Below are positions 4,023 through 64,000 of a stretch of 64,000 bases of DNA, piece after piece. The position numbers were made by a program, and so were the translations under genes. The notes beneath the pieces were generated by a model, which saw nothing but the letters and a program-made list of their open reading frames with translations, was not told where the DNA came from and searched no databases. The DNA comes from an uncultured Opitutia bacterium (lineage in GTDB: Bacteria; Verrucomicrobiota; Verrucomicrobiia; Opitutales; Opitutaceae). How positions within the stretch are numbered: the first letter of the stretch is position 1; each line of letters begins with the position of its first letter. Where the stretch lies: the NCBI GenBank assembly GCA_903902745.1, contig CAIUWA010000016.1, positions 1 through 64,000 of the forward strand, given 5' to 3'.

Positions 4023-4097
4023 GGATCGTGAGAGAGGATGTACCGGCCTAATGTTCCCACAAGTCCGGCAAATGGCGGGTGGGGCTCTGATCTGAAA

Positions 4098-4171
4098 CTG
4101 TAGGAGCGGCTTTATGCCGCGATGCTTGGATCCGCCGGGTGAATGATCGCGGCATAAAGCCGCTCCTACAG
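4098..4171. repeat. Class E REP-like palindrome, copy 1
   Basis: Two perfectly complementary 26-nt arms (4098-4123 and 4146-4171) separated by 22 nt; the left arm contains TGTAGGAGCGGCTTTATGCC. The same arms recur at 13505-13577 with an unrelated loop. It sits 16 nt past the stop codon of pckG and would form a strong hairpin in its transcript. The TAGGAGCGGCTTTATGCCGCG type is seen widely as dispersed intergenic repeats in proteobacteria and others. Confidence 0.9.
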
Positions 4172-4187
4172 TCGATCACGCGCCGTC

Positions 4188-11456: not shown

Positions 11457-12230
11457 ATGGATCTATCGCCCCGGTTTCCCCGCTGGATCCACCGGCCGGT
11501 CTTCTGGACCATTGCTTTTCTCTTGTCCGGATTGGCGGGCATTGCGGCCCAGGGCGGGCCTTCATCCTCCGCGCCGCTTTATGCGAACGGCGTGAAGACG
11601 CGCGACGGGCTCGGGAAATATTATTTCGGCCGCGAGATCGCCTCCTACATGACCCACGAGGGGGCGCCGTGGCTGGACCGGCCCGAGCGCGAGCAGGAGG
11701 AACGGCCCGATCTCGTGATGCAGGCGCTCCGGCTCAAGCCCGGTGAGATCGTGGCGGACATCGGCTGCGGCACGGGCTATTTCAGCTGGCGCATGGCGGA
11801 GGCCGTCGGCGCGCAGGGCCTGGTCTATGGCGTCGAGATCCAGCAGGAGATGCTCGACCTGCTGGCCGTCAAAATGAAGGAGCGCCACGTGGCCAACGTC
11901 ACCGGCGTCCTCGGCACCATCCGGGATCCCCGGCTCCCGCAGCTGGTGGATCTCGCGCTGATGGTGGACGTGTACCACGAGTGCAGCGAACCGGCGGAGA
12001 TGATGGCAGCGATCTGCCGGAGCCTGAAGCCCGGCGGCCGCATGGTGTTTGTCGAGTATCGCGGCGAGGATCCCTCCGTGCCGATCAAGCCGCTGCACAA
12101 GATGAGCGAGGCCCAGGTGAGGCAGGAGATGACCGCCCAGCCGCTCGACTACGTCGAAACCATCGAAACCCTGCCGCGGCAACACATCATCATCTTCCGG
12201 AAGCGGGCGGTGGCATCAGCCGGAAAATAG
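11457..12230 (+). CDS. Exported class I SAM-dependent methyltransferase domain protein
   Basis: 257 residues. The N-terminus has a hydrophobic segment (residues 15-32, VFWTIAFLLSGLAGIAAQG) that looks like a signal peptide or anchor. The rest is a Rossmann methyltransferase: motif I VADIGCGTGYFSWRMAEAVG, acidic residue at the end of strand 2 (YGVEIQQEMLDLL), motif IV-like DLALMVDVYHEC and a late LKPGGRMVFVEYRGED. A longer frame from 11331 overlaps the upstream gene; the ATG at 11457 begins the signal-like segment. SAM is not expected in the periplasm, so either the segment is an anchor with the domain inside, or the domain has another ligand. Confidence 0.75.
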   Translation: MDLSPRFPRWIHRPVFWTIAFLLSGLAGIAAQGGPSSSAPLYANGVKTRDGLGKYYFGREIASYMTHEGAPWLDRPEREQEERPDLVMQALRLKPGEIVADIGCGTGYFSWRMAEAVGAQGLVYGVEIQQEMLDLLAVKMKERHVANVTGVLGTIRDPRLPQLVDLALMVDVYHECSEPAEMMAAICRSLKPGGRMVFVEYRGEDPSVPIKPLHKMSEAQVRQEMTAQPLDYVETIETLPRQHIIIFRKRAVASAGK

Positions 12231-13504: not shown

Positions 13505-13577
13505 TTGTAGGAGCGGCTTTATGCCGCGATGGATCTCAGCCAACCTTAAACAGCGCGGCATAAAGCCGCTCCTACAA
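13505..13577. repeat. Class E REP-like palindrome, copy 2
   Basis: Arms 13505-13528 and 13554-13577 are perfectly complementary over 24 nt and match the arms at 4098-4171; the 25-nt loop differs. Lies 14 nt past the stop of the WxxGxW-repeat gene and upstream of the bicupin start. Confidence 0.9.
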
Positions 13578-13591
13578 CTTCAGGCGGAATC

Positions 13592-14557
13592 TCAGCGCCA
13601 GTAGCCCTCGATGAAGACGTAGCCTTCCCGGCGGTGGTCCCAGCGCGGCGCGACCCACACGGCACGCTCGCGCGGCGGCAGTTCCCAATGGCCGGAGATC
13701 CACACCTGCCGTCCGGCCTGCCAGGTCCAGAAACCCTCAAGCCAGACATGCCGCGGCGAGGGCCGCGGCATCATCATTTCGTGGCGCGGCGGCGGCGGAG
13801 GATCCCGGATCACAATCACTTCATGATGCGGCGGCACAGGCCGCTCGACCACCACCGGGCGGGGTGGCGGGGAACCGATGCTCACCGCGATGCCCACGTC
13901 GCGCCAGAAGCCCTCGACCAGGACGTAGCCGTTACTCCTCTGCTCCCAGCGCGGCGCGACCCACACGGCGTGCTCGCGCGGCGGCTGGTCCCAATGGCCG
14001 GCGACCCACACATGGCGCCCTTGGCGCCAGCCCCAGTAGCCGGAAACCCACACCGCCACGGGTGAAGGCCGTTCATAAATGATTTCACGCTGGGGCGGAG
14101 GCGGCGGCACATTGACCACCACGATTTCCTGCGCCGCGGGAGCGGCGGCCATCGCCGGCGCCGGCGGCGCGGCTTCCTGCCAGTAGCCTTCCACCAGCAC
14201 ATAACCGTTGCCCTTGGCTTCCCAGCGCGGATCCACCCAGACAGCGTTCGCCACCGGCGGCAGTTCCCAATGGGCGGACACCCAGGCATACGCGCCCTCC
14301 TGCCAACGCCAATGGCCCGGCACCCACGCGTGCTGCGGCGAGGGCTGTTCTTCCGGAAGCTCCTGCGCAACCGCAGGCTGCAGAGGCTTGTCGAGGGCGG
14401 GCGCCGGCGCCACCGTGCGCGCGTCCGGCACGGCCGGCGCCTGGGCCCGACCGGGAGCGGGAGTAAAAAGCACCAGCGCCAGACCAAATCCCGCCAGCTG
14501 GGCCACGCTCAGCGCAGCAGATTGCAAGGGTCGAAGTAAAACAGGGGAGGTGGACAT
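13592..14557 (-). CDS. Exported WxxGxW/YXWGXW-repeat protein
   Basis: 321 residues. After a signal peptide and a Pro/Ala-rich spacer come three long tandem cassettes, each with about four aromatic units: HAWVPGHWRW...YAWVSAHWELPP...AVWVDPRWE...YVLVEGYWQ; AVWVSGYWGW...HVWVAGHWDQPP...YVLVEGFWR; HVWLEGFWTW...QVWISGHWELPP...YVFIEGYWR. Cassettes are joined by proline-rich, valine-rich linkers. The pattern matches the YXWGXW repeat proteins, which are extracytoplasmic and of unknown function; the regular aromatic ladder suggests a rigid beta scaffold or carbohydrate contact. The triplication at about 75-90 residue spacing is unusually clear. Confidence 0.85.
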   Translation of the reverse strand: MSTSPVLLRPLQSAALSVAQLAGFGLALVLFTPAPGRAQAPAVPDARTVAPAPALDKPLQPAVAQELPEEQPSPQHAWVPGHWRWQEGAYAWVSAHWELPPVANAVWVDPRWEAKGNGYVLVEGYWQEAAPPAPAMAAAPAAQEIVVVNVPPPPPQREIIYERPSPVAVWVSGYWGWRQGRHVWVAGHWDQPPREHAVWVAPRWEQRSNGYVLVEGFWRDVGIAVSIGSPPPRPVVVERPVPPHHEVIVIRDPPPPPRHEMMMPRPSPRHVWLEGFWTWQAGRQVWISGHWELPPRERAVWVAPRWDHRREGYVFIEGYWR

Positions 14558-14673: not shown

Positions 14674-16305
14674 TCAGCCGGCGTCGGATTTCTTGGCTGA
14701 CCGTCCGCGGCGCGCGGGCTTCTTTTCCCCGTCGGCGAACCTGGAGGCCTTGGCGTTGAGCCACAGCTCGTCCTTGGCGTTCCGGTTGAACCAGAAAATT
14801 TCCCCGGCATGTTCCGCGAACACGGGTTTTTCGCGGGCCTTCTCCGGCACCGCCAGTCCCGCGGTCACCAGCGCGGCGGTAAAATCCGCCGGCGATTTGC
14901 CCAGTTCCTCCGCGAGCCGGTCCACCTTGCCGGCAACCGCCCCCGTCTTTGTCTCCTTCAACAGCAGCCTCACCGCCGCAAAAATATTACCCGGCGCCGG
15001 GACCCCCGTGACTCCCGTCACCTGTCCACCGTCCCCTGTCCCCTGCCCGTCCGCCCTAGGCTGGGCGACGGCGGATTGTCCGGCCTCCGGCGTCCGTCCT
15101 CCGTCCTCCGTCTTCTCCTGCCCGTTGATCCAGATCCCGCCGCGTTGATCCTGGTTGAGCCACCAGACTTCGCGGCCGATCTCCACCTCCACCGGTTTGT
15201 CTCCCGCCGCCGCCGGCAGGGTCAGTCCGAGAGTGGCGAACGCCGCCATGAGGTCGGCCTCGGTGCACTTCAACCCGCGCGAAAGAAAACTCGTGCTGCC
15301 CGAGCCGCCCGGCCCGCGCCGGTTGCGCCGCATCAGCGGCCGGATCTTTTCCAGCAGCCCCGGCCCCGCCGGCAGCGGCTCGCCCGGCGTTCCAATCGGG
15401 ACCTCATTCCTGCGCCCCCGGTCGTCTTGCTTCCTTCCGCTGTCTCTCGCCTCATGGGGTTTGTCGCTCGCATCGGGCGCGCCTGATGCGGATGCACCGG
15501 AGGATGATGCCCCCGACGACTCTCCGCCCCCCGCCCCTCGCCCCTCGCCCTCGTCCCCCGGAGCGGCGGCCGTCGGCGCGACGCGCTGGCCCTGCACCGT
15601 CCGGAAAACCGGACGCGGCTTTTCCTTGGTGTTGAGCCAGAGTTCGCCCCGGCGGTTGAGATTCAGCCAGTAAAGGTCGCCCTCGTATTCGATGTAGACC
15701 GGGGGCGCATCCTCGTCGTCGGGCACGACAAAGCCGCACTCCACGAGCGCGCCCTTGATGTCCTCGTCCGAAAAATCCCACTTCTTCGCCAGATGCTCGA
15801 CGCCGACGGACATGCCCGGGCCCCGCTGATTGCGGCGCATGTGCGGGCGGATGGCCTCGAAAAATGTCGGCAGCTCGTTCTCGGAGGTGAGCATGTCCCA
15901 CTCGTCCTTCTCCTCCGGTGCATCGGGATCGAGATCGCCCTCGGTGTTGCGCACCCGGCGGAAACCGTCGTCCGTCGCGGTCTTTTCATCCGCCAGGGTG
16001 AGCGGCTTCTCTGGCTCCGCCACCGGCGCGCCGGCGCCCACGCCCTTGAACTTCGCCTCGAACTCCGCGCGGAGCTTGTCGGCCTCGCCCCGGGCCGCGG
16101 CGGCCGCGGCGTCCTCGAGCGTCCAGTCCCGCTGCGTCGAGCGCCGGGCGATGCCGGTGAACGCGAGCGCGTTGTCGGGCTGCGCCTGAAAATGGAGGAT
16201 GTCCCACTCCTCCTTGCCGAGATCGTTGAGAAATTTTTCCAGCAGTGCGGGAGTGGCGAAGCCGCCCTTGCCGCTGGTGATGACCTTGTATTCCCAGATT
16301 GCCAT
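14674..16305 (-). CDS. Three-module cytosolic protein of unknown family
   Basis: 543 residues, not recognised. Residues 1-60 (MAIWEYKVITSGKGG, EEWDILHFQ) resemble small DUF4177-like domains. Then come three related modules at about 148-230, 317-398 and 440-520. Each has a helical part (FFEAIRPHMRRNQRGPG / LLEKIRPLMRRNRRGPG / IFAAVRLLLKETKTG), a second helical pair ending in LVECGFVVP-type sequence, and a beta hairpin (YWLNLNRRGELWLN / WWLNQDQRGGIWIN / FWFNRNAKDELWLN). Linkers are disordered, Gly/Ser/Asp-rich. The linker at 398-436 is encoded by dispersed repeat DNA. The C-terminus is basic (KKPARRGRSAKK), suggesting nucleic-acid contact. ATG at 16305 chosen where the conserved N-terminus begins. 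Confidence 0.75.
   Translation of the reverse strand: MAIWEYKVITSGKGGFATPALLEKFLNDLGKEEWDILHFQAQPDNALAFTGIARRSTQRDWTLEDAAAAAARGEADKLRAEFEAKFKGVGAGAPVAEPEKPLTLADEKTATDDGFRRVRNTEGDLDPDAPEEKDEWDMLTSENELPTFFEAIRPHMRRNQRGPGMSVGVEHLAKKWDFSDEDIKGALVECGFVVPDDEDAPPVYIEYEGDLYWLNLNRRGELWLNTKEKPRPVFRTVQGQRVAPTAAAPGDEGEGRGAGGGESSGASSSGASASGAPDASDKPHEARDSGRKQDDRGRRNEVPIGTPGEPLPAGPGLLEKIRPLMRRNRRGPGGSGSTSFLSRGLKCTEADLMAAFATLGLTLPAAAGDKPVEVEIGREVWWLNQDQRGGIWINGQEKTEDGGRTPEAGQSAVAQPRADGQGTGDGGQVTGVTGVPAPGNIFAAVRLLLKETKTGAVAGKVDRLAEELGKSPADFTAALVTAGLAVPEKAREKPVFAEHAGEIFWFNRNAKDELWLNAKASRFADGEKKPARRGRSAKKSDAG
14998..15114. repeat. Class C polypurine repeat lying inside a coding region
   Basis: Read on the minus strand this holds GGAGGACGGAGGACGGACGC and then GGGGACAGGGGACGGTGGAC, both of the same style as the intergenic repeats at 60672-60718, 61195-61273 and 62638-62942. 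It is translated in frame as the linker between modules 2 and 3 of the protein at 14674-16305. Confidence 0.75.
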
Positions 16306-38663: not shown

Positions 38664-41600
38664 TCATCCTTCGAGCACGACCAGCGTTTCTCCGGCGCCG
38701 ACCGGACGGCCCTCGACGCAGCGCACCTCCCGCACCCGGCCGGCGCGGCTGGCCAAGATGGTGACCTCCATTTTCATCGACTCCAGGATCACGAGCGGGT
38801 CGCCGTCCTTGACCCGGTCGCCGGCGGCCACCGCTATTTTCCAAACATTGCCGGGAATATGCGCGGGCACCGCCGTGCAGCCCGCCGGAATGGCCTCGGG
38901 GCTGAGCTCGGCCGCGGCTTCCGCCCCGGCGGAAAAATTGAGCTGGCCGCTGTCCTCCCAGCGCTTCCGCTCGGCCTCGAACGCGGCCTGCTGGCGGGTC
39001 TTGGCCGCCGTAATGCCCGCGGCGTTTTTCCGCCGGAATTTTTCGTAGTCGCCCAGCCGGAAGGTCGTTTCCTCGATTTTCAGCTTCACGCGGCCCTGCG
39101 GCAGGTCGTCGCGAAATTTCATCAGCTCGGCGTTCGTGACCGGATAAAACCGGATCTGGTCGAAGAACCGCAGCAGCCACGGCTTCCCTTCCGTGAAGTC
39201 CGCCGTCTGCCGGTAGCGGTTCCACATCTGGCAGGTGCGGCCGATGAACTGGTAGCCGCCCGGGCCCTCCATCCCGTAGATGCAGAGATAGGCGCCGCCG
39301 ATGCCGACGGCGTTTTCGGGCGTCCATGTCCGCGCGGGATTGTACTTCGTGGTGACCAGGCGGTGGCGTGGATCCACCGGCGTCGCCACCGGGGCGCCCA
39401 GATAAACATCGCCCAGCGCCAGCACGAGGTAGCTCGCCTCAAAGACGATCCGGTGGACGTCCTCCACGCGGTCCAGGCCGTTGATGCGGCGGATGAATTC
39501 AATGTTGCTCGGACACCAGGGCGCATCCTTGCGGACGATCTGCATGTATTTGCGGATGGCGAGGAGCGTGGACTCGTCCTCCCACGATAGCGGCAGGTGG
39601 ACGATGCGCGAGGGCACCTCCATTTTCGCCACCGCCGGCAGCGCGCCCTCCGCCCGCAGCAGGGTTTTCATCAACCGGGCCAGCGGCAGCACGCGTGGAT
39701 CGAAATGCACCTGCAGCGAGCGGATGCCCGGCGTCAGGTCCACCAAGCCGCGCAACCGCCGGCCCTCCAGCCACGTCTGGAGCGCATACACGCGCAGGCG
39801 CAACGCGAGGTCGAGGACGAGCGGGCCGTATTCGATCAGGAGGTTGCAGTCACCGGCCCGGCGGTAACAGACCGCGGGAGCATCCGGGCGCTCGGAAATC
39901 TGGTGGAGGATGGCGGGTTCGGGGAGCGCGTAGTTGGCAGTTGGTAGTTGGTAGTTAGGTTTTGCCTGCGTGGGTTTGATACCAATTCCCAACTGCCAAC
40001 TGCCAACTACTCCGGCCCGTTGTCGCGCCGTCCCCAATGCCTCAATTTCCCCATCCTGCGTATCCGCGGCGATCCTCGCCTGCTCCGCCGTCAAGGGCCG
40101 GAACCTGACCTTGTCCCCGGGTTTGAGCTGGCCCGTTTTCCACAGCTCGGCCCGGACAATCGTGGCCGGACAGACAAAGCCGCCGCAGCTCGGGCCGTCG
40201 GGCCCGAGGATGATCGGCATGTCGCCGGTGAAATCGATGGCGCCGATGGCGTAGGCGTTGTCATGGATGTTCGAGGGATGCAGGCCGGCCTCGCCGCCGT
40301 CGCGCCGCGCCCAGGCGGGCTTGGGCCCGATGAGCCGCACGCCCGTGCGCGCGGAATTATAGTGCACCTCGTAGGCCGTGCTGAAGAGCGTCGCGATGTC
40401 GTCCTCGGTGAAAAAGTCCGGCGCGCCGTGCGGCCCGTAGAGCACGCCGATTTGCCACTCATGGGTGAGCGGTGGCAGGAGGGGTTTGGGCAGACGGGGA
40501 GAAGAAGTAGTTGGTAGTTGGTAGTTGGCAGTTGGTGCTTCGGATTTCGGACCTGCTGGCGAGGGGTTGCCACCAACTGCCAAATCCAAACTGCCAACTA
40601 CGGATCGATTCACCCTCATCACATCCCCCGCCCGCAAGGCCCGGCCCGCGTGTCCGCCAAACAAGCCGAGCGTGAACGTCGCCTTGCTGCCAAGGTAGTC
40701 CGGCACATCGAGGCCGTGGCGGATCGCAAGGTACGCGCGAAGGCCGGGCCCCTCGACCGCGCCGAGGCGGAGCGTCTGGCCGGCTTTCACCCGCAGGGCG
40801 CGGTGGTAGGCGGCCGGCCGGCCATCGAGCGTGGCGGGTAGATGCGCTCCTGTCAGCGCGATGACCGCGGGGGTGTTGAACCGCAGCGTTGGGCCGCTGA
40901 CAGTGATCTCGAGTCCGGCAGCGGTGGCTGCATTGCCGACCAGCCGATTGGCCAGGCGGAACGAGCGGTCGTCCATCGGCCCCGAGGGCGGCACCCCCAC
41001 CGCCCAGTAACCGAGACGGCCGGGAAAATCCTGCACGGTCGTCTGGGTGCCGCCCTCGAGGACATCGATGGTCGAGGGGACATAAGGCAGGCCGTTGAGA
41101 TACTTCGTCGTCACCCCGCCGGCGCGAAATCCGGCCGAGGCGGCAATCTGGCGGAGGTAGGCGAGGTTCGTCTCCAGCCCGTGGAGCCGGGTGCCGGCCA
41201 GCGCCGCGTCCAGCCGCCGCAGGGCCTCGGACCGGTTGCGCCCCTTCACAATGATTTTCGCAAGGAGGGGATCGTAAAACGCGGAAACCTCCGTGCCTCG
41301 CTCCACCCAGGTCTCGACGCGCGCCGCGGCGGAAAAATGCACGTCGGTCAGGATGCCGGCCGCCGGCTGGAAATTCTTGCCGGGATCCTCGGCATAAACC
41401 CGCACCTGGATCGACGCGCCGGAGGTGGCCGGACGCCAGCGTGAGAGATCGATCTCCCCGGCCGCAGCGCGCAGCATCCACTCGACGAGGTCGATGCCCG
41501 TCACTTCCTCCGTGACGCCATGCTCGACCTGCAGGCGGGTGTTGACCTCCAGGAAATAAAATTCGCCCGTGGCCTGATCGTAGACGAATTCGACGGTGCC

Positions 41601-42410
41601 TGCATTCCGGTAGCCGGCCGCCGCACCCAGCCGCACCGCCGCTTCAAGGAGGCGCGCGCGCTGCCCCGGAGTCAGGCCGGGCGCGGGGGTTTCCTCGATA
41701 ACCTTCTGGTTTCGGCGCTGGACGGAGCAATCACGCTCGCCGAGGGCGACGACCCGGCCGTGACTGTCACCGAAGATCTGCACTTCGATGTGCCGGGCCT
41801 GCTCGACAAATTTTTCCAGGAAGATGCCGCCCTCCTTGAAATTGTTTTTGGCCAGCCGTCCCACCGCGGCGAAGGCCGCCGCCAGTTCATCCGGGCGGCG
41901 AATGAGCGCCATGCCGATCCCGCCGCCACCCGCCGTGCTTTTTAACATCAGCGGATAGCCGATCTGGGTCGCCTCGGTCCGCGCCTGGGCCTCGTCGCGA
42001 AGCAGCCCGGAGCCGGGCAGCAGCGGAACTCCGTGTTCCTGCGCCAGTGCCCGCGCAGCATGCTTGAGCCCGAACATCCGCATCTGGTCGCCGGTCGGGC
42101 CGATGAAAACGAGGCCGGCTGCGACACACGCGTCGGCAAACGCGGGGTTTTCCGAGAGAAAGCCGTAGCCCGGATGAATTGCCTGGGCGCCGCAGGCTTG
42201 GGCCGCGGCGATGATTTTCCCGGCATCCAGGTAACTCTGTGCCGCTGGCGCCGGCCCGATGGGCACGGCCTCGTCACAAGCCGTGACGTGCATCGAGTGG
42301 CTGTCCGCCTCCGAATAAACGGCGACCGACTTCACCCCCATGCGCCGCAGCGTGCGGGCAATCCGGCACGCGATGGCGCCGCGGTTGGCAATAAGAACCT
42401 TGGAAAACAT
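38664..42410 (-). CDS. uca: Urea carboxylase-family biotin enzyme (urea or guanidine carboxylase)
   Basis: 1248 residues. Biotin carboxylase about 1-455 (KVLIANRGAIACRIARTL, AGGGGIGM, EVNTRLQVEHGVTE); an AHS2/KipA-type half about 462-790 (TVQDFPGRLGYWAVGVPPSG; EWQIGVLYGPHGAPDFFTED); an AHS1/KipI-type half about 840-1080; and a biotinyl domain with biotin-Lys about 1213 (ILESMKMEV). It carboxylates urea or, in clusters with DUF1989 genes, guanidine. Two class A repeats are translated in frame at about 603-634 and 800-827, giving similar peptides (VVGSLDLAVGG, VVGSWQLGIG, PTANYQLP); the first is inside the AHS2 domain, the second in the linker. ATG 42410 overlaps the DUF1989 stop (TGATG). No allophanate hydrolase gene follows. 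Confidence 0.92.
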   Translation of the reverse strand: MFSKVLIANRGAIACRIARTLRRMGVKSVAVYSEADSHSMHVTACDEAVPIGPAPAAQSYLDAGKIIAAAQACGAQAIHPGYGFLSENPAFADACVAAGLVFIGPTGDQMRMFGLKHAARALAQEHGVPLLPGSGLLRDEAQARTEATQIGYPLMLKSTAGGGGIGMALIRRPDELAAAFAAVGRLAKNNFKEGGIFLEKFVEQARHIEVQIFGDSHGRVVALGERDCSVQRRNQKVIEETPAPGLTPGQRARLLEAAVRLGAAAGYRNAGTVEFVYDQATGEFYFLEVNTRLQVEHGVTEEVTGIDLVEWMLRAAAGEIDLSRWRPATSGASIQVRVYAEDPGKNFQPAAGILTDVHFSAAARVETWVERGTEVSAFYDPLLAKIIVKGRNRSEALRRLDAALAGTRLHGLETNLAYLRQIAASAGFRAGGVTTKYLNGLPYVPSTIDVLEGGTQTTVQDFPGRLGYWAVGVPPSGPMDDRSFRLANRLVGNAATAAGLEITVSGPTLRFNTPAVIALTGAHLPATLDGRPAAYHRALRVKAGQTLRLGAVEGPGLRAYLAIRHGLDVPDYLGSKATFTLGLFGGHAGRALRAGDVMRVNRSVVGSLDLAVGGNPSPAGPKSEAPTANYQLPTTSSPRLPKPLLPPLTHEWQIGVLYGPHGAPDFFTEDDIATLFSTAYEVHYNSARTGVRLIGPKPAWARRDGGEAGLHPSNIHDNAYAIGAIDFTGDMPIILGPDGPSCGGFVCPATIVRAELWKTGQLKPGDKVRFRPLTAEQARIAADTQDGEIEALGTARQRAGVVGSWQLGIGIKPTQAKPNYQLPTANYALPEPAILHQISERPDAPAVCYRRAGDCNLLIEYGPLVLDLALRLRVYALQTWLEGRRLRGLVDLTPGIRSLQVHFDPRVLPLARLMKTLLRAEGALPAVAKMEVPSRIVHLPLSWEDESTLLAIRKYMQIVRKDAPWCPSNIEFIRRINGLDRVEDVHRIVFEASYLVLALGDVYLGAPVATPVDPRHRLVTTKYNPARTWTPENAVGIGGAYLCIYGMEGPGGYQFIGRTCQMWNRYRQTADFTEGKPWLLRFFDQIRFYPVTNAELMKFRDDLPQGRVKLKIEETTFRLGDYEKFRRKNAAGITAAKTRQQAAFEAERKRWEDSGQLNFSAGAEAAAELSPEAIPAGCTAVPAHIPGNVWKIAVAAGDRVKDGDPLVILESMKMEVTILASRAGRVREVRCVEGRPVGAGETLVVLEG
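39930..40010. repeat. Class A repeat translated in uca (second insert)
   Basis: Left arm GTAGTTGGCAGTTGGTAGTT, right arm CCAATTCCCAACTGCCAACT; 81 nt overall. Read on the minus strand it gives GVVGSWQLGIG...PNYQLPTANYA in frame, between the AHS2 and AHS1 domains. Confidence 0.88.
40507..40601. repeat. Class A repeat translated in uca (first insert)
   Basis: Left arm GTAGTTGGTAGTTGGTAGTT, right arm near 40573-40601 (CCAACTGCC, CTGCCAACTAC). Read on the minus strand it gives SVVGSLDLAVGG...PTANYQLPTTSS within the AHS2 domain after GDVMRVNR. Same family and similar peptide to the second insert. Confidence 0.88.
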
Positions 42411-43042
42411 CACGAATTCCAAATCAGAATCTCGATCGGCGTCGGGTTGTAGGCGTTACAGGGATTATTTAACTGCGGGCAGTTGGATATGACGCAGACC
42501 ACATCCCGCTCGGCGCGGAGCTCGACGTAAAAGCCGGGGGCAGAAACCCCGTCCGCAAAGGTCAGGCGGCCGTCGGGCGTCACCGGCACGTTCATGAAGA
42601 AGTTGATGTTGCAGGTGATGTCGCGCTTGCCGAGGTCGGCCCGCCACGCGTGCACCCCGCAGATGAAGCTGTCGCGGCACGCGTGCATGTATTCCTTGTC
42701 CGCGGAATACCGCATCGTGTTGCTCTCGCGCGAACAGGCGCCGCCGAGCGTGTCGTGACGGCCGCAGGTGTCGGCGATGATCGTGAGCAGCACGTCGCCG
42801 CGGGTGGAGATGAGCTGAGTGCCGATCGAAAGATAGAGCGCCGCCTGGCGGCGGATGGTGTCGCTGGCGCTGTACCGGTTGAGCGGGTCGTGCGCGTCGT
42901 AGAACAGCGTGTCCGCGGCCTGGTTGCCCTCGACGTCAACGATGCGCAGCACCGACCCGCGCTTGATCTCATGCGTCCACGGGTCGCCGGCCGGGATGAT
43001 GTGGCGGTAGGAGGCGTGGGCGGGGTTGAGGGGGCTGGTCAT
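42410..43042 (-). CDS. DUF1989 urea-carboxylase-associated protein (candidate carboxyguanidine deiminase subunit)
   Basis: 210 residues. Family motif [20 protein letters not shown] and the C-terminal [21 protein letters not shown] are present, together with [25 protein letters not shown]1989 pairs next to urea-carboxylase genes have been linked to carboxyguanidine deiminase (CgdAB), which makes allophanate from carboxyguanidine. Conserved cysteines and histidines suggest a metal or catalytic site. Its stop overlaps the uca start. Separated from the other DUF1989 gene by a class A repeat. Confidence 0.88.
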
Positions 43043-43054
43043 GGTGAAGGGGCA

Positions 43055-43154
43055 GTAGTTGGTCGTTCGCAGTTGGTATTTGGTGGCCTAGGGCGAAGGT
43101 GGAAGTTTTGTCCCGTGGTTCGGGACCAACTGCCAATTCCCAACTACCAATTAC
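43055..43154. repeat. Class A repeat between the two DUF1989 genes, supplying a stop codon
   Basis: GTAGTTGGTCG on the left, CCAATTCCCAACTACCAATT on the right. On the minus strand the element edge reads GTAATTGGTAGTTGGGAATT; its TAA (43151-43153) is the stop of the upstream DUF1989 gene. Confidence 0.85.
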
Positions 43155-43953: not shown

Positions 43954-43972
43954 CCTCTCGCGAAGCGAGAGG
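43954..43972 (-). promoter_or_regulatory. Hairpin in the leader of the DUF1989 gene
   Basis: CCTCTCGC and GCGAGAGG are perfectly complementary around a 3-nt loop. Lies 60 nt upstream of the DUF1989 start and directly next to a class A repeat. Could be part of that repeat's boundary, an attenuator or a processing site. Confidence 0.45.
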
Positions 43973-44111
43973 GGAAATTGGTGGTTGGGAGTTGGGAATT
44001 GGTGAAAACCCGTCGGCCCTCGTCTCGCAGGGAATGGTTCGCGCGCCTTGGGCCTACCACCCCGATCCCGTCCCTTCGAAACCAATTCCCAATTCCTAAC
44101 TCCCAACTATC
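43972..44111. repeat. Class A repeat between nikR-like and DUF1989 genes
   Basis: AATTGGTGGTTGGGAGTTGG (left) mirrors CCAATTCCCAATTCCTAACT with CCCAACTAT (right), around about 75 nt. Next to the 18-nt perfect palindrome at 44111-44128. Confidence 0.85.
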
Positions 44112-44128
44112 CGCGGCGGCCGCCGCGG
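44111..44128. repeat. 18-nt perfect GC palindrome at the nikR-like stop codon
   Basis: CCGCGGCGGCCGCCGCGG is fully self-complementary and begins one base after the regulator's TGA. Similar GGCGGCC...GGCCGCC stems edge the class A element at 44565-44815, so this may be a boundary module of that family or a terminator. Confidence 0.6.
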
Positions 44129-44564: not shown

Positions 44565-44806
44565 GGGGCGGCCTGCGGCCGGGGAATTGGTAGTTGGGAA
44601 TTTGTAATTGGGAATTGGAAATTTGGAATTGGTTAAATTTAGCGACTTTGCAGCCCAGTTTGGTTCTTCCACCAACTACCAATTCCCAACTGCCAACTAC
44701 GGATCGGTGTAATGCGTCGTTCTTAACTGGCGGTTAATGCTGTTCATTGCGACTCCGGACCAATTCCCAACTGCCAACTCCCAATTCCCCGGCGGCCAGG
44801 CCGCCG

Positions 44807-51111: not shown

Positions 51112-51276
51112 TCAGACAGGGAAGCCGGAGGCCGGAGGCCGGACGCCAGGAAATATCCGCCATCGCACCGATGCCGGGCGATGAAATCGCATTCCGTCCG
51201 CCTTATCCTCGGTTCTGCTTTTCATATTCTGGGCTGGCGTCCGGCCTCGGGCATCTGGCGTCCGGCCTCCGGCCGC
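51112..51276. repeat. Class C polypurine inverted repeat
   Basis: GGAGGCCGGAGGCCGGACGC on the left mirrors GCGTCCGGCCTCCGGCC on the right. The right edge lies within 3 nt of the TGA ending the upstream ArnA-dehydrogenase gene. Fills the arnD/arnA gap. Confidence 0.82.
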
Positions 51277-52314
51277 TCACTCCAGCTGATAGCCCTTGTG
51301 CGCGAGGTGGTAGTCGAGCGTCAGCTTGATCGCCCGCTTCAGGTTCACCTTGGGCGTCCAGCCGAGCTGCTTCTTCGCATGCGCGATCGAGGGCACGCGC
51401 TTCTGGATGTCCTGGTAATATTTCCCGAAATACTTGCCCGACGTCACCACCACCGTCCGCGCCTTCGCGGCGTGCGAACGGTACTCGGGATAATCCTTGA
51501 AGGCCGCAATGATCATCTTCGCCAGCTCGGCCACGCTCACGTCATTCCGCGGGTTGCCGAGGTTGAAGATCTGGCGCGAGGCGCAGCCGTTCTTGTTCTC
51601 GATGATGCGCAGCAGCGCGTCGACGCCGTCATCGATGAACGTGAACGACCGGCTCTGCCGGCCGCCGTCCACGAGCTGCAGCGGCTTCTTGAAGATGACG
51701 TTCGAGATGAACTGCGTGAAGAGGCGCGAGCTGCCCTCCTTCGGCTCCATCACGTCGTCGAGCTTCGGCCCGATCCAGTTGAACGGCCGAAACAGCGTGT
51801 AGTCGAGGTTGTCGCGCACGCCATAGGCGTAGATGACGCGGTCGAGGAGCTGCTTTGAGCAGGCGTAGATCCAGCGCTGCCGCTCGATCGGGCCGTACAC
51901 CAGCGCGCTGGTCGCCTCGTCGAGCTTGCCGTCTGGGCACATGCCGTAGACCTCGGACGTGGAGGGGAAAAGGACGCGCTTCTTGTATTTCGCGCACTGG
52001 CGGACGACGGCGAGGTTCGCCTCGAAATCCAGCTCGAACACCCGCAGCGGGTCCTTGACGTACTGGATCGGGTTGGCGATGGCGACGAGCGGGATGACCA
52101 CGTCGCACTTCTTCACGTGGTACTCGATGTACTCGCGGTTGATCATGATGTCGCCCTCGACAAACTTGAAGCGCGGATCGCCGAGGCTGTCCTCGAGCTT
52201 GTTGCTGCCGATGTCCAGGCCGTAGACCTCCCAGTCCTTCTGCTTGAGGATGGCCCGCGTGAGCGAGCTGCCGATGAAACCGTTGGCGCCGAGGATGAGG
52301 ACTTTGAGAGGCAT
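51277..52314 (-). CDS. arnA: ArnA dehydrogenase half: UDP-glucuronate oxidative decarboxylase
   Basis: 345 residues, equivalent to the C-terminal domain of bifunctional E. coli ArnA. NAD-binding GANGFIGSSLTRAILKQ; FPSTSEVYGMCPD; the Tyr/Lys pair in WIYACSKQLLDRVIYAYG; LFRPFNWIGPKLDD. It makes UDP-4-keto-L-arabinose from UDP-glucuronate. In enterobacteria it is fused to the formyltransferase; here the formyltransferase is a separate gene just upstream, in the same order as the fused domains. Confidence 0.93.
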   Translation of the reverse strand: MPLKVLILGANGFIGSSLTRAILKQKDWEVYGLDIGSNKLEDSLGDPRFKFVEGDIMINREYIEYHVKKCDVVIPLVAIANPIQYVKDPLRVFELDFEANLAVVRQCAKYKKRVLFPSTSEVYGMCPDGKLDEATSALVYGPIERQRWIYACSKQLLDRVIYAYGVRDNLDYTLFRPFNWIGPKLDDVMEPKEGSSRLFTQFISNVIFKKPLQLVDGGRQSRSFTFIDDGVDALLRIIENKNGCASRQIFNLGNPRNDVSVAELAKMIIAAFKDYPEYRSHAAKARTVVVTSGKYFGKYYQDIQKRVPSIAHAKKQLGWTPKVNLKRAIKLTLDYHLAHKGYQLE

Positions 52315-53379: not shown

Positions 53380-53496
53380 AAAAGAATTGGTTAACCGCCC
53401 GCCCCGAAGCGAGCGCCGAAAACCAGTCGGTTTTCGTCCAGAACTCAAAAGCCTCGCGAACGAAGCCGAAACACCAATTCCCAACTCCCAATTACC
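53380..53496. repeat. Class A repeat at the arnC stop codon
   Basis: GAATTGGTTAACC on the left, CACCAATTCCCAACTCCCAA and TTACCC on the right. On the minus strand the edge reads GGGTAATTGGGAGTTGGGAA; its TAA at 53492-53494 ends arnC. Confidence 0.82.
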
Positions 53497-54457: not shown

Positions 54458-54539
54458 TGGGGCGTGGTAATCGGTTTAAGCGGGCCAATGTTTGGTTGAA
54501 ATCACAAACGCCGCGGGGGCGGCAGGAATTTAGGGCCGC

Positions 54540-54641
54540 AGGAATTGAGAATTTGGAATTGGAAATTGGTTTCGAACCCCCGGACAGCCCTGCGTCATAC
54601 CGACTCCGAACCAATTCCCAACTCCCAATTCCAAATTCCCC
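54540..54641. repeat. Class A repeat between arnB and arnC
   Basis: GGAATTGAGAATTTGGAATT on the left mirrors CCAATTCCCAACTCCCAATT and CCAAATTCCCC on the right. The surrounding gap (54458-54664) contains nothing else recognisable. Confidence 0.85.
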
Positions 54642-54664
54642 GGGGCCATCACGCTAGATCCTCT

Positions 54665-57687: not shown

Positions 57688-57826
57688 GGCAAAAGCTGAA
57701 GACTGAAAAGCTGACACGCTGAAATCGGATTCTAAATTTCAGATTTTCAGCGTTTCAGCATTTGGAAAGGTCCCTTTCAGTTTTTCAGCGTTTCAGTTTG
57801 TCAGATTTTCAGCTTTTCCGCTTTAG
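57688..57826. repeat. Class I repeat (CTGAAAA family), inverted
   Basis: AGCTGAAGACTGAAAAGCTG on the left; TTTCAGATTTTCAGCGTTTC and TTTTTCAGCGTTTCAGTTTG on the right. Occupies nearly the whole gap between the divergent arnT and holA genes, so promoters of both must lie in or beside it. Confidence 0.8.
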
Positions 57827-58941: not shown

Positions 58942-59154
58942 GTAGTTGGGAGTTGGGAATTGGGAATTTGGTGCAACGCCGCTGGCGGTGAGTAATTGGT
59001 AATTTGGAATTGGGAATTGGTTTGGACACTGCCTCTGGCCGTGAGTCATTGGCCGTCCAGCTGGAAATGATCCGCATCGAGCACGCGTGGTCCGGGCCCT
59101 CTCGTTTCTGCTTCCGACCCAATTACAAATTCCTAACTCCCAATTACTCCGGCC
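58942..59154. repeat. Class A repeat cluster between holA and purB
   Basis: Two left arms (GTAGTTGGGAGTTGGGAATT at 58942 and GTAATTGGTAATTTGGAATT near 58991) and one right arm (CCCAATTACAAATTCCTAAC with TCCCAATTAC, about 59118-59152). Starts four bases after the holA stop. Confidence 0.82.
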
Positions 59155-60669: not shown

Positions 60670-60671
60670 GC

Positions 60672-60718
60672 AGGCGGGCGGAGGACGGAGGACGGAGGAC
60701 AGAAGACGGAGGAGGGGA
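60672..60718. repeat. Class C polypurine repeat, left flank of the four-helix-bundle gene
   Basis: GGCGGAGGACGGAGGACGGA followed by GGACAGAAGACGGAGGAGGG. Inverted partner at 61195-61273. Confidence 0.85.
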
Positions 60719-60759
60719 GGGAAATGGGCTGAAATATCGGGGGTGGGATCATCGTTTCA

Positions 60760-61164: not shown

Positions 61165-61194
61165 GACTCGTCTGCTGCAGACCCCGCCTCCTAT

Positions 61195-61273
61195 CCGTCA
61201 TCTGGCTTCCAGCGTCCGGCCTCCGTCATCCGTCTTCCGTCTTCCGTCTTCCGGCCTCCGGCCTCCGGCCTCC
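61195..61273. repeat. Class C polypyrimidine repeat, right flank of the four-helix-bundle gene
   Basis: CCTCCGTCATCCGTCTTCCG, then further CTTCCGTCTTCCG and GGCCTCCGGCCTCCGGCCTC units. Reverse complement of the type at 60672-60718, giving long inverted arms around the gene. Confidence 0.85.
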
Positions 61274-61309
61274 GCAAACTCAAATTTCCGCGAGGAAATT
61301 TGAGTTTGC
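61274..61309. promoter_or_regulatory. Perfect 16-bp hairpin with GNRA-type loop upstream of pfp
   Basis: GCAAACTCAAATTTCC pairs fully with GGAAATTTGAGTTTGC around the tetraloop GCGA. It lies 70 nt before the pfp ATG and directly after the class C repeat. No U-run follows on either strand, so it is not a standard terminator; an RNA leader structure or protein site is possible. Confidence 0.7.
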
Positions 61310-62875: not shown

Positions 62876-62934
62876 TCTTCCGTCCTCCGCCTTCCGCCTT
62901 CCGTCCTCCGTCCTCCGGCTTCCGGCGTCCGGCC

Positions 62935-62942
<8 letters not shown>
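62876..62942. repeat. Class C repeat supplying the cstA stop codon
   Basis: CTTCCGTCCTCCGCCTTCCG then CCGTCCTCCGTCCTCCGGCT and GGCGTCCGGCCTCAGGCTTC. On the minus strand the edge reads GGAAGCCTGAGGCCGGACGC; TGA at 62935-62937 ends cstA, where sister copies have GGAAGCCAGAGGCC without a stop. Confidence 0.82.

Positions 62943-64000
<1,058 letters not shown>

Follow-up and report, generated by a model that had tools for sequence, protein, structure and literature searches.

Degenerate heptanucleotide repeats in the reading frame of a urea carboxylase and other conserved genes of Opitutaceae

The urea carboxylase gene of an uncultured Opitutia bacterium (Opitutaceae, Verrucomicrobiota) was found to contain two inverted arrays of a dispersed, degenerate 7-nt repeat, CCAAYTN, both of which lie in frame within an ORF that is uninterrupted along its whole length. 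The gene is located in the window, by which we mean the whole stretch of 64,000 nucleotides that was analysed. The explanation that we consider likely is that the dispersed (CCAAYTN)n repeat was copied into two permissive segments of the gene and is translated there, and that such loops are reused as landing sites. This explanation draws on the identity of the repeat, its dispersal, the open frame, an empty site within the same genus (in an RlmI-like gene), the recurrence of repeats at fixed sites and, in part, the correspondence between the flavour of the repeat at a site and that of the host genome. The peptide encoded by the inserts is presumably made and harmless.

The ORF aligns in a single stretch to positions 1-1201 of the TIGR02712 urea carboxylase model and scores 1827 bits, against a cut-off of 1304. 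The preliminary description had named the product a urea/guanidine carboxylase; the urea part of that name holds, as the protein passes the TIGR02712 equivalog, and the guanidine part is not supported by this match. Profile searches identified UAAP1 and UAAP2 proteins, a NikR-type regulator and a nitrate/taurine-type ABC transporter in the neighbourhood. The first insert splits the CT_A_B domain, of which the 261 model positions are spread over 302 residues, and the second lies between CT_A_B and CT_C_D (Table 1). Both copies consist of NARTTGG units, a spacer and CCAAYTN units, i.e. of inverted heptamer arrays (NARTTGG)n...(CCAAYTN)n. On the coding strand GTAGTTGG opens and CCAACTAC closes both copies, if the units beyond the inner CCAACTAC of copy 1 are counted. 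The predicted peptides of the two inserts are VVGSLDLAVGG...PTANYQLPTT and VVGSWQLGIG...PNYQLPTANY. Hairpin 1 folds at -42.3 kcal/mol and hairpin 2 at -39.9 kcal/mol, with none of 200 shuffles being equally stable in either case, and the codon-position GC on each side of both copies (GC3 0.83-0.87, GC2 0.44-0.57) follows a coding pattern in the same frame. Open ORF, full-length model match, folds and coding GC together bear out the earlier claim of two palindromic repeats that are read in frame within the carboxylase. An alignment with relatives that lack the repeats had also been proposed, and in the urea carboxylase alignments the residues of hairpins 1 and 2 are indeed absent from the aligned relatives. 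Within the spacer of hairpin 1, SPAGPKSEAP aligns with TPAGVTDAAP and may be native sequence that was kept, a likeness that could be coincidental.

Table 1. Coordinates of the urea carboxylase gene, its inserts and domains, and the other class A (CCAAYTN) arrays in the window
Feature	Position	Strand	Remarks
Urea carboxylase gene, host of both inserts	38664..42422	-	1252 aa; TIGR02712 and Pfam domains
Heptamer hairpin 1, in frame, aa 608-639, loop of CT_A_B (AHS2)	40507..40601	-	arms 40509-40535 and 40573-40599; fold z -5.7
Heptamer hairpin 2, in frame, aa 805-831, AHS2-AHS1 linker	39930..40010	-	arms 39932-39958 and 39982-40008; fold z -5.8
CT_A_B domain, aa 475-776, split by hairpin 1	40095..41000	-	PF02626, 313.9 bits
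CT_C_D domain, aa 853-1073, C-terminal to hairpin 2	39204..39866	-	PF02682, 136.8 bits
Class A array, 3' end of UAAP1 gene (TIGR03425)	43126..43152	+	UAAP1 TAA stop 43151-43153 within last unit
Class A inverted pair	43976..44108	.	fold z -3.1 for 43970-44115
Class A cluster, three arms	44585..44786	.	
Class A arm	53474..53493	+	
Class A inverted pair	54543..54637	.	fold z -3.4 for 54535-54645
Class A group, three arms	58944..59145	.	

AlphaFold modelling of aa 451-1085 (mean pLDDT 68.9) leaves most of each insert with a pLDDT below 50 and with neither helix nor strand. These low values cover residues 158-183 and 354-378 of the modelled fragment; insert 1 is flanked by two strands and insert 2 by a helix and a strand. 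As other parts, including 547-635, also score below 50, low pLDDT is not specific to the inserts and the model only agrees with a loop position for both.

The preliminary description had recognized a dispersed element, here called class A, without its composition of degenerate 7-nt CCAAYTN units. A 3-unit pattern, CCAAYTNCCAAYTNCCAAYT, has 37 + 31 = 68 exact and partly overlapping matches in the 3.29 Mb genome. Since the reversed pattern has no match genome-wide, base composition (window GC 65.6%) does not explain the repeat. The presence of class A at other places in the window, as described earlier, was confirmed for the six arrays listed in Table 1. At two of the positions given earlier less was seen, 43055 itself having a degenerate partner arm and 53380 a short arm only (both by eye). 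The window, together with 24 stretches (169 kb) surrounding strict matches, yielded 48 array groups, a number that is not a genome total, and in 26 of the 48 the arms occur in both orientations, inverted and complementary. A MITE would combine terminal inverted repeats with a target-site duplication and a parent transposase.

At least 7 of the 48 groups lie within genes, with a coding signal on both sides: two in the urea carboxylase, two in GcvP (TIGR00461, 1463 bits; at aa 453-461 and 740-749), a single one in an RlmI-like rRNA methyltransferase, and two in linkers that precede LysM domains. The latter linkers are of low complexity, making the two LysM proteins weaker cases. All five one-armed genic arrays are read in the CCAAYTN direction. 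A sensor kinase gene (L118) and a MacB/FtsX-type gene (L111) were considered as well and left uncounted; their arrays precede the conserved domains, and translation may in truth start downstream of them.

Because seven is not a multiple of three, a heptamer array visits all three phases and specifies the same cyclic heptapeptide whichever frame is entered; CCAATTC, for instance, gives PIPNSQF in all three frames. The strand matters: no stop interrupts any of the three frames in 56 of 76 arms when the CCAAYTN strand is read, compared with 24 of 76 when the opposite strand is read. The occurrence of stops is set by the strand and the N base and not by the insertion phase, and the phase rule proposed in the preliminary description (GTA GTT GGC reads through, the TAA/TAG phase stops) therefore had to be dropped. 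The heptamers CTCAGCT and CATTCGT, found in relatives, are stop-free on one strand only, and GcvP loops or carboxylase linkers with either of these heptamers are read on that very strand. In one gene (L190) the array is of GACCTCT, whose cycle contains TGA, and has TGG at the in-phase position; this single case is as would be expected if there were selection for an open frame.

For the RlmI-like methyltransferase, 21 relatives were compared by alignment. A genome of the same genus (G418), whose gene is 89% identical, has an empty site, ARRSGDFGRLVW, where our genome has ARRQEPIPNSQLQITPGDCRRLVW and is 36 nt longer; another genome of the genus (G360) carries the same heptamer as ours at this site. 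A long inverted repeat of GTAGGGCG type was seen in G303 and a short one in G085 (by eye), both differing in sequence from the heptamer of our genome. The loop is short in around half of the 21 relatives, and several others have extra residues. The insert in the G360 gene (L239) exceeds that of the window genome in length and is preceded by another repetitive stretch.

To the urea carboxylase linker of the window we added those of 24 relatives, which were read by eye. The relatives found belong to the Opitutaceae and other Verrucomicrobia, and their linkers hold a variety of repeats: CATTCGT heptamers in L031, L035 and L079, AAATCCA/AAATCGA heptamers in L033 and L061, AAATCTC heptamers in L036, a GGTAGGGCG palindrome in L032 and a short palindrome, GTMACY..RGTKAC, in L037, L038, L039, L040, L044 and L060, with a weaker form in L045. 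Outside the phylum, CCCTCTCCC palindromes occur in the linker of L050 from Azospirillum and in those of L108 and L109 from Pseudomonas, a genus in which L100 has a GTAGCCCGGAT palindrome there. By eye no clear repeat was present in the linkers of L034, L041, L042, L043 and L046 and of the more distant L048, L066, L071, L076 and L091. At a third site, residue 327 (window numbering) in the biotin carboxylase part, a paired GTTCGTATTACGAAC palindrome lies in frame in L040 (5976-6044), L041 (1898-1978) and L145. The short palindrome was also observed in frame in the ORF 3' of the urea carboxylase in L037 (9229), L038 (9241) and L044 (9235), where its core equals that of the carboxylase linker in L037 and L044 and differs from it in L038. 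We take this downstream ORF to be amidase-like, resembling allophanate hydrolase.

Palindromes with perfect arms of at least 12 nt were counted in 107 distinct genes (109 before the identical proteins L136/L036 and L138/L044 were merged; they were not merged for the period-7 and looser-criterion counts). Seventeen fell within the three sites, which make up 8.2% of the length, and 14 outside, whereas codon shuffles predicted 9.2 over the full length and around 0.8 within the sites. The residue-327 site was chosen after the data had been seen and the limits of the urea carboxylase sites were likewise drawn post hoc; omission of the three hits at residue 327 and of the window's own two leaves 12 palindromes in 12 genes. 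Under a strict criterion, 6 period-7 arrays were detected in 4 of the 109 genes, all at the two insert places of the window gene. For period 6, a looser criterion gave 24 arrays, against 4.3 in shuffles, and the strict criterion gave 5, of which 4 are one Gly-rich run.

GcvP provides an independent test, because the two arrays of our own genome fixed both places before any relative was seen. In 50 genomes, all 20 strict period-7 arrays were located at residues 445-464 or 737-758 of 969. They derive from 14 of the 50 genomes, including our own, which contributes 2 of the 20, and they represent about nine heptamers up to rotation and strand, some of which have motifs in common: AGCTCTC, GACCTCT, CTCCSAT, AAATCCC, AAATCGA/AAATCCA, CCAATTC, GCGGAAT, TCCGCCC and AGGCATC. 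No strict arrays were found in these genomes at periods 4, 5, 8, 10, 11 and 13, nor any period-7 array in the codon shuffles. Period 14, a multiple of 7, gave 9 arrays, and periods 3, 6, 9 and 12 gave 3, 2, 2 and 1, five of these eight lying either in one Ala-rich stretch of L197 or next to the heptamer array of that gene. Palindromes with 12-nt arms are few in GcvP (3 at the sites versus 0.3 expected; 5 outside versus 4.8 expected in all), and the case made by this gene therefore rests on the period-7 arrays. The content of the places varies even within the genus, with CCAATTC in our genome, a weaker AGCTCTC-like sequence in G360 and an AAATCCA-like one in G418 (not among the 20). In the 740 loop of the GcvP of G409 (L196), a short palindrome core is nested inside a longer inverted heptamer pair, an arrangement that reads as a nested insertion.

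For most of the families tested, the repeat at the site is also dispersed in its host genome, with exceptions. A strict genomic array of AAATCSA is present in 6 of 7 genomes that carry this heptamer at the GcvP loop and in 8 of 43 that do not (p 0.001), and one of AGCTCTC in 5 of 9 carriers versus 8 of 41 others (p 0.04), although these statistics ignore relatedness and depend on the mismatch threshold (AGCTCTC 0.065 at 2; AAATCSA 0.009 at 4). The carriers without a strict genomic array are G360, G398, G419 and G425 for AGCTCTC and G279 for AAATCSA. The genomic matches include two of the very arrays at GcvP (G390, G399), omission of which leaves presence or absence unchanged, and G399 and G003, which have identical coordinates and are probably one genome, were entered once. 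CCAAYTN was found in 6 of the 49 other GcvP genomes (66 matches in G191, 26 in G391) and never at their GcvP; taken alone, this flavour demonstrates nothing about host matching.

At the carboxylase linker, CATTCGT was recovered from the genomes of 2 of 3 carriers and 1 of 17 others. The CCCTCTCCC palindromes are dispersed in the genomes of L050, L108 and L109 (147, 49 and 182 forward matches; 1, 0 and 18 for the reversed controls), and are also plentiful in 2 of 4 genomes that lack one in the linker (28 forward matches for L048, 12 for L101). Where the linker holds the short palindrome, its core also predominates over the other cores of the genome in G007 (22 of 33 sites), G008 (10 of 17), G009 (14 of 20) and G013 (13 of 14), as counted by eye with the linker copy included. 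Among the matches listed, the linker core is the commonest in G016 and a minor variant in G010; the short palindrome of L045 is outside the strict pattern.

These data suggest a genome-wide (CCAAYTN)n heptanucleotide family, often present as inverted pairs, that would be copied into tolerant gene segments and translated with the gene. For a genic copy to survive, the segment would have to tolerate the additional residues, the net length would have to be a multiple of three and no stop could lie in phase. The last of these would be easy with a 7-nt unit, as the CCAAYTN strand gives, whatever the frame, the same heptapeptide cycle, mostly free of stops (PIPNSQL and variants). Different repeats would reuse this small set of loops in other genomes, the repeat in a loop tending toward the families of its host. 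Because the loops recur and tend to hold repeats of host families, the segments can be seen as landing sites, the contents of which would be replaced over time by whatever repeat spreads in the genome. It is possible, and we put it forward tentatively, that an active and as yet undescribed copying process operates in Opitutaceae, in which the unit length stays seven, the sequence shifts per genome and the same coding loops are overwritten. If so, the loops of core enzymes would record the repeat population of the genome.

A rather unlikely alternative is that the arrays grow locally at any place where additional residues are tolerated, a chance seed being extended by polymerase slippage, with nothing moving and seven as the length favoured by slippage. 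The arrays are short and degenerate, period 7 dominates GcvP, where no period that is not a multiple of seven reaches more than three, and the introduction of one report (PMC4679880) mentions the proposal that 7 nt may be the contact length of the polymerase. Slippage in place does not, however, account for one heptamer in the urea carboxylase, GcvP, RlmI-like and LysM genes of a single genome, nor for the tendency of loop and host flavours to match; inverted complementary arms are unlike a one-strand slippage product, and the same linker holds non-tandem palindromes in other genomes. These features rather suggest that the repeat was brought in by copying, be it transposition or gene conversion.

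A selected function, with an mRNA hairpin at the domain boundary slowing the ribosome for co-translational folding or with the peptide serving as a linker, seems improbable. The coding-strand hairpins are strong, and in seven relatives the pairing of the linker palindrome is kept by two-sided changes (18 cells; reached by none of 500 shuffles) that alter amino acids on both sides of the palindrome. Such paired changes are, however, also expected if palindrome cores of the genome's own were copied in; just 16 of 107 genes have a perfect hairpin of 12 nt at one or more of the three sites, and the one-strand arrays of L031, L035 and L079 fold weakly. The window derives from a draft of 52 contigs, but misassembly or a mis-called ORF is hardly credible: neither a frameshift nor an assembly error is indicated at the sites, given the coding GC in one frame on both sides and the unbroken full-length model match, and the complete genome IMCC26134 (L044) has the short palindrome in frame in the same urea carboxylase linker. 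Equally slight is the chance of an ordinary variable linker that happens to resemble the repeat, since, even though both segments are variable within the family and the enzyme of yeast (3va7), which aligns through both insert places, has extra residues of its own there, this is already refuted by the match of both arms to the dispersed heptamer at the DNA level (reversed-pattern control 0).

Tandem 7-nt units that are dispersed in the genome are also known from the STRR of cyanobacteria, which are heptanucleotide repeats, and class A resembles these in both respects. When four cyanobacterial genomes were searched for CCAAYTN itself, it proved abundant in one, G429, with 206 + 142 matches versus 3 + 9 for the reversed control (5 matches in G428), although common 7-nt units do not show common descent.

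Among other heptanucleotide repeats, the TAACTGA type of Beggiatoaceae is described as particularly intergenic (PMC4679880), and G-rich heptamers of the GGGAATC type in Xanthomonas and Nostoc as under-represented in coding regions (PMC4692102). In the P6b stem of the Nostoc tRNA-Leu(UAA) intron, classes of 7-nt repeats have been repeatedly swapped while the fold was kept (PMC4476775); as described there, this parallels the hairpins at fixed sites with replaced repeat classes, but in the RNA of a group I intron and not in a protein-coding gene. The likeness to Rickettsia palindromic elements drawn in the preliminary description holds as far as class A is palindromic and in frame within unrelated genes; the Rickettsia elements as described in PMC10969869 are about 150 bp and encode a conserved peptide, whereas the copies in this Opitutaceae gene are 81-95 bp and made of 7-nt units.

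Closer in phylogeny are the GTAG and CGTC REPs, for which in-frame copies inside ORFs were reported in 2013, with the GTAG class most numerous in Opitutus terrae, itself a verrucomicrobium (PMC3733652). The occurrence in another phylum, previously put forward as new, is thus not a novelty. According to the same account, REP dimers or groups encode 20-30 aa, GTAG ends often provide a TAG stop, and the recB genes of two Xanthomonas species have different REPs at about the same site. The class A copies are likewise dispersed palindromes in frame, but differ from the REPs described there in being degenerate heptamers with variable spacers, in that not all copies are GTAG-tagged and in that no link to a RAYT was found. 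A GTAG REP is a palindromic unit of 20-40 bp with GTAG at one end. Both copies in the urea carboxylase start with GTAG, yet this tetranucleotide arises with every TAGTTGG unit, and at 54540 the copy begins with AGGAATTG. A search of our genome (G000) with Y1_Tnp gave one match of 29 bits, RAYT-like, at C11:107065-107259 (L227), and the surrounding 5 kb contained neither the class A pattern nor a palindrome with perfect 11-nt arms at short spacing; a RAYT as the motor of class A accordingly found no support. What goes beyond the REPs is the recurrence at two GcvP loops (14 of 50 genomes) and in the urea carboxylase linker of more than one phylum. In-frame REPs in ORFs are already known; what is new is the heptamer basis and the finding that different repeats, partly specific to the host, fill one and the same loop, and no publication on heptamer arrays in frame at recurrent loops was found among open-licence PMC papers.

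If this reading is correct, conserved enzymes receive residues, in a small number of fixed loops, from repeats that are usually called intergenic. As the repeat in a given loop differs between relatives, every gene of this kind would constitute a natural replacement series that can be read against the gene tree, making the spread of bacterial heptamer repeats, and the way in which short selfish DNA turns into protein, accessible to testing. It would also serve as a warning that an unusual linker in an annotated enzyme can be a repeat that is translated.

The window contains several other repeats. A second heptamer family, TCCGTCC/TCCGGCC, occurs in both orientations at 15072-15112, 51240-51280, 60670-60719, 61194-61283 and 62879-62947, and an array of 8-nt units, TCAGNNTT, at 57731-57824. 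Dispersed repeats of TTTCGCGCAGAGGCGCAAAG type, again in both orientations, are located at 12226, 12498, 21472, 23658, 48702, 48751, 50011, 50166, 62757 and 62826. At 4097-4172 and 13548-13583 there is a GTAGGAGCGGCTTTATGCCGC palindrome resembling a GTAG REP, and at 13595-14347 a unit of 171 nt is present three times, with 65-75% identity to the reference copy and a spacing of 306 and 276 nt.
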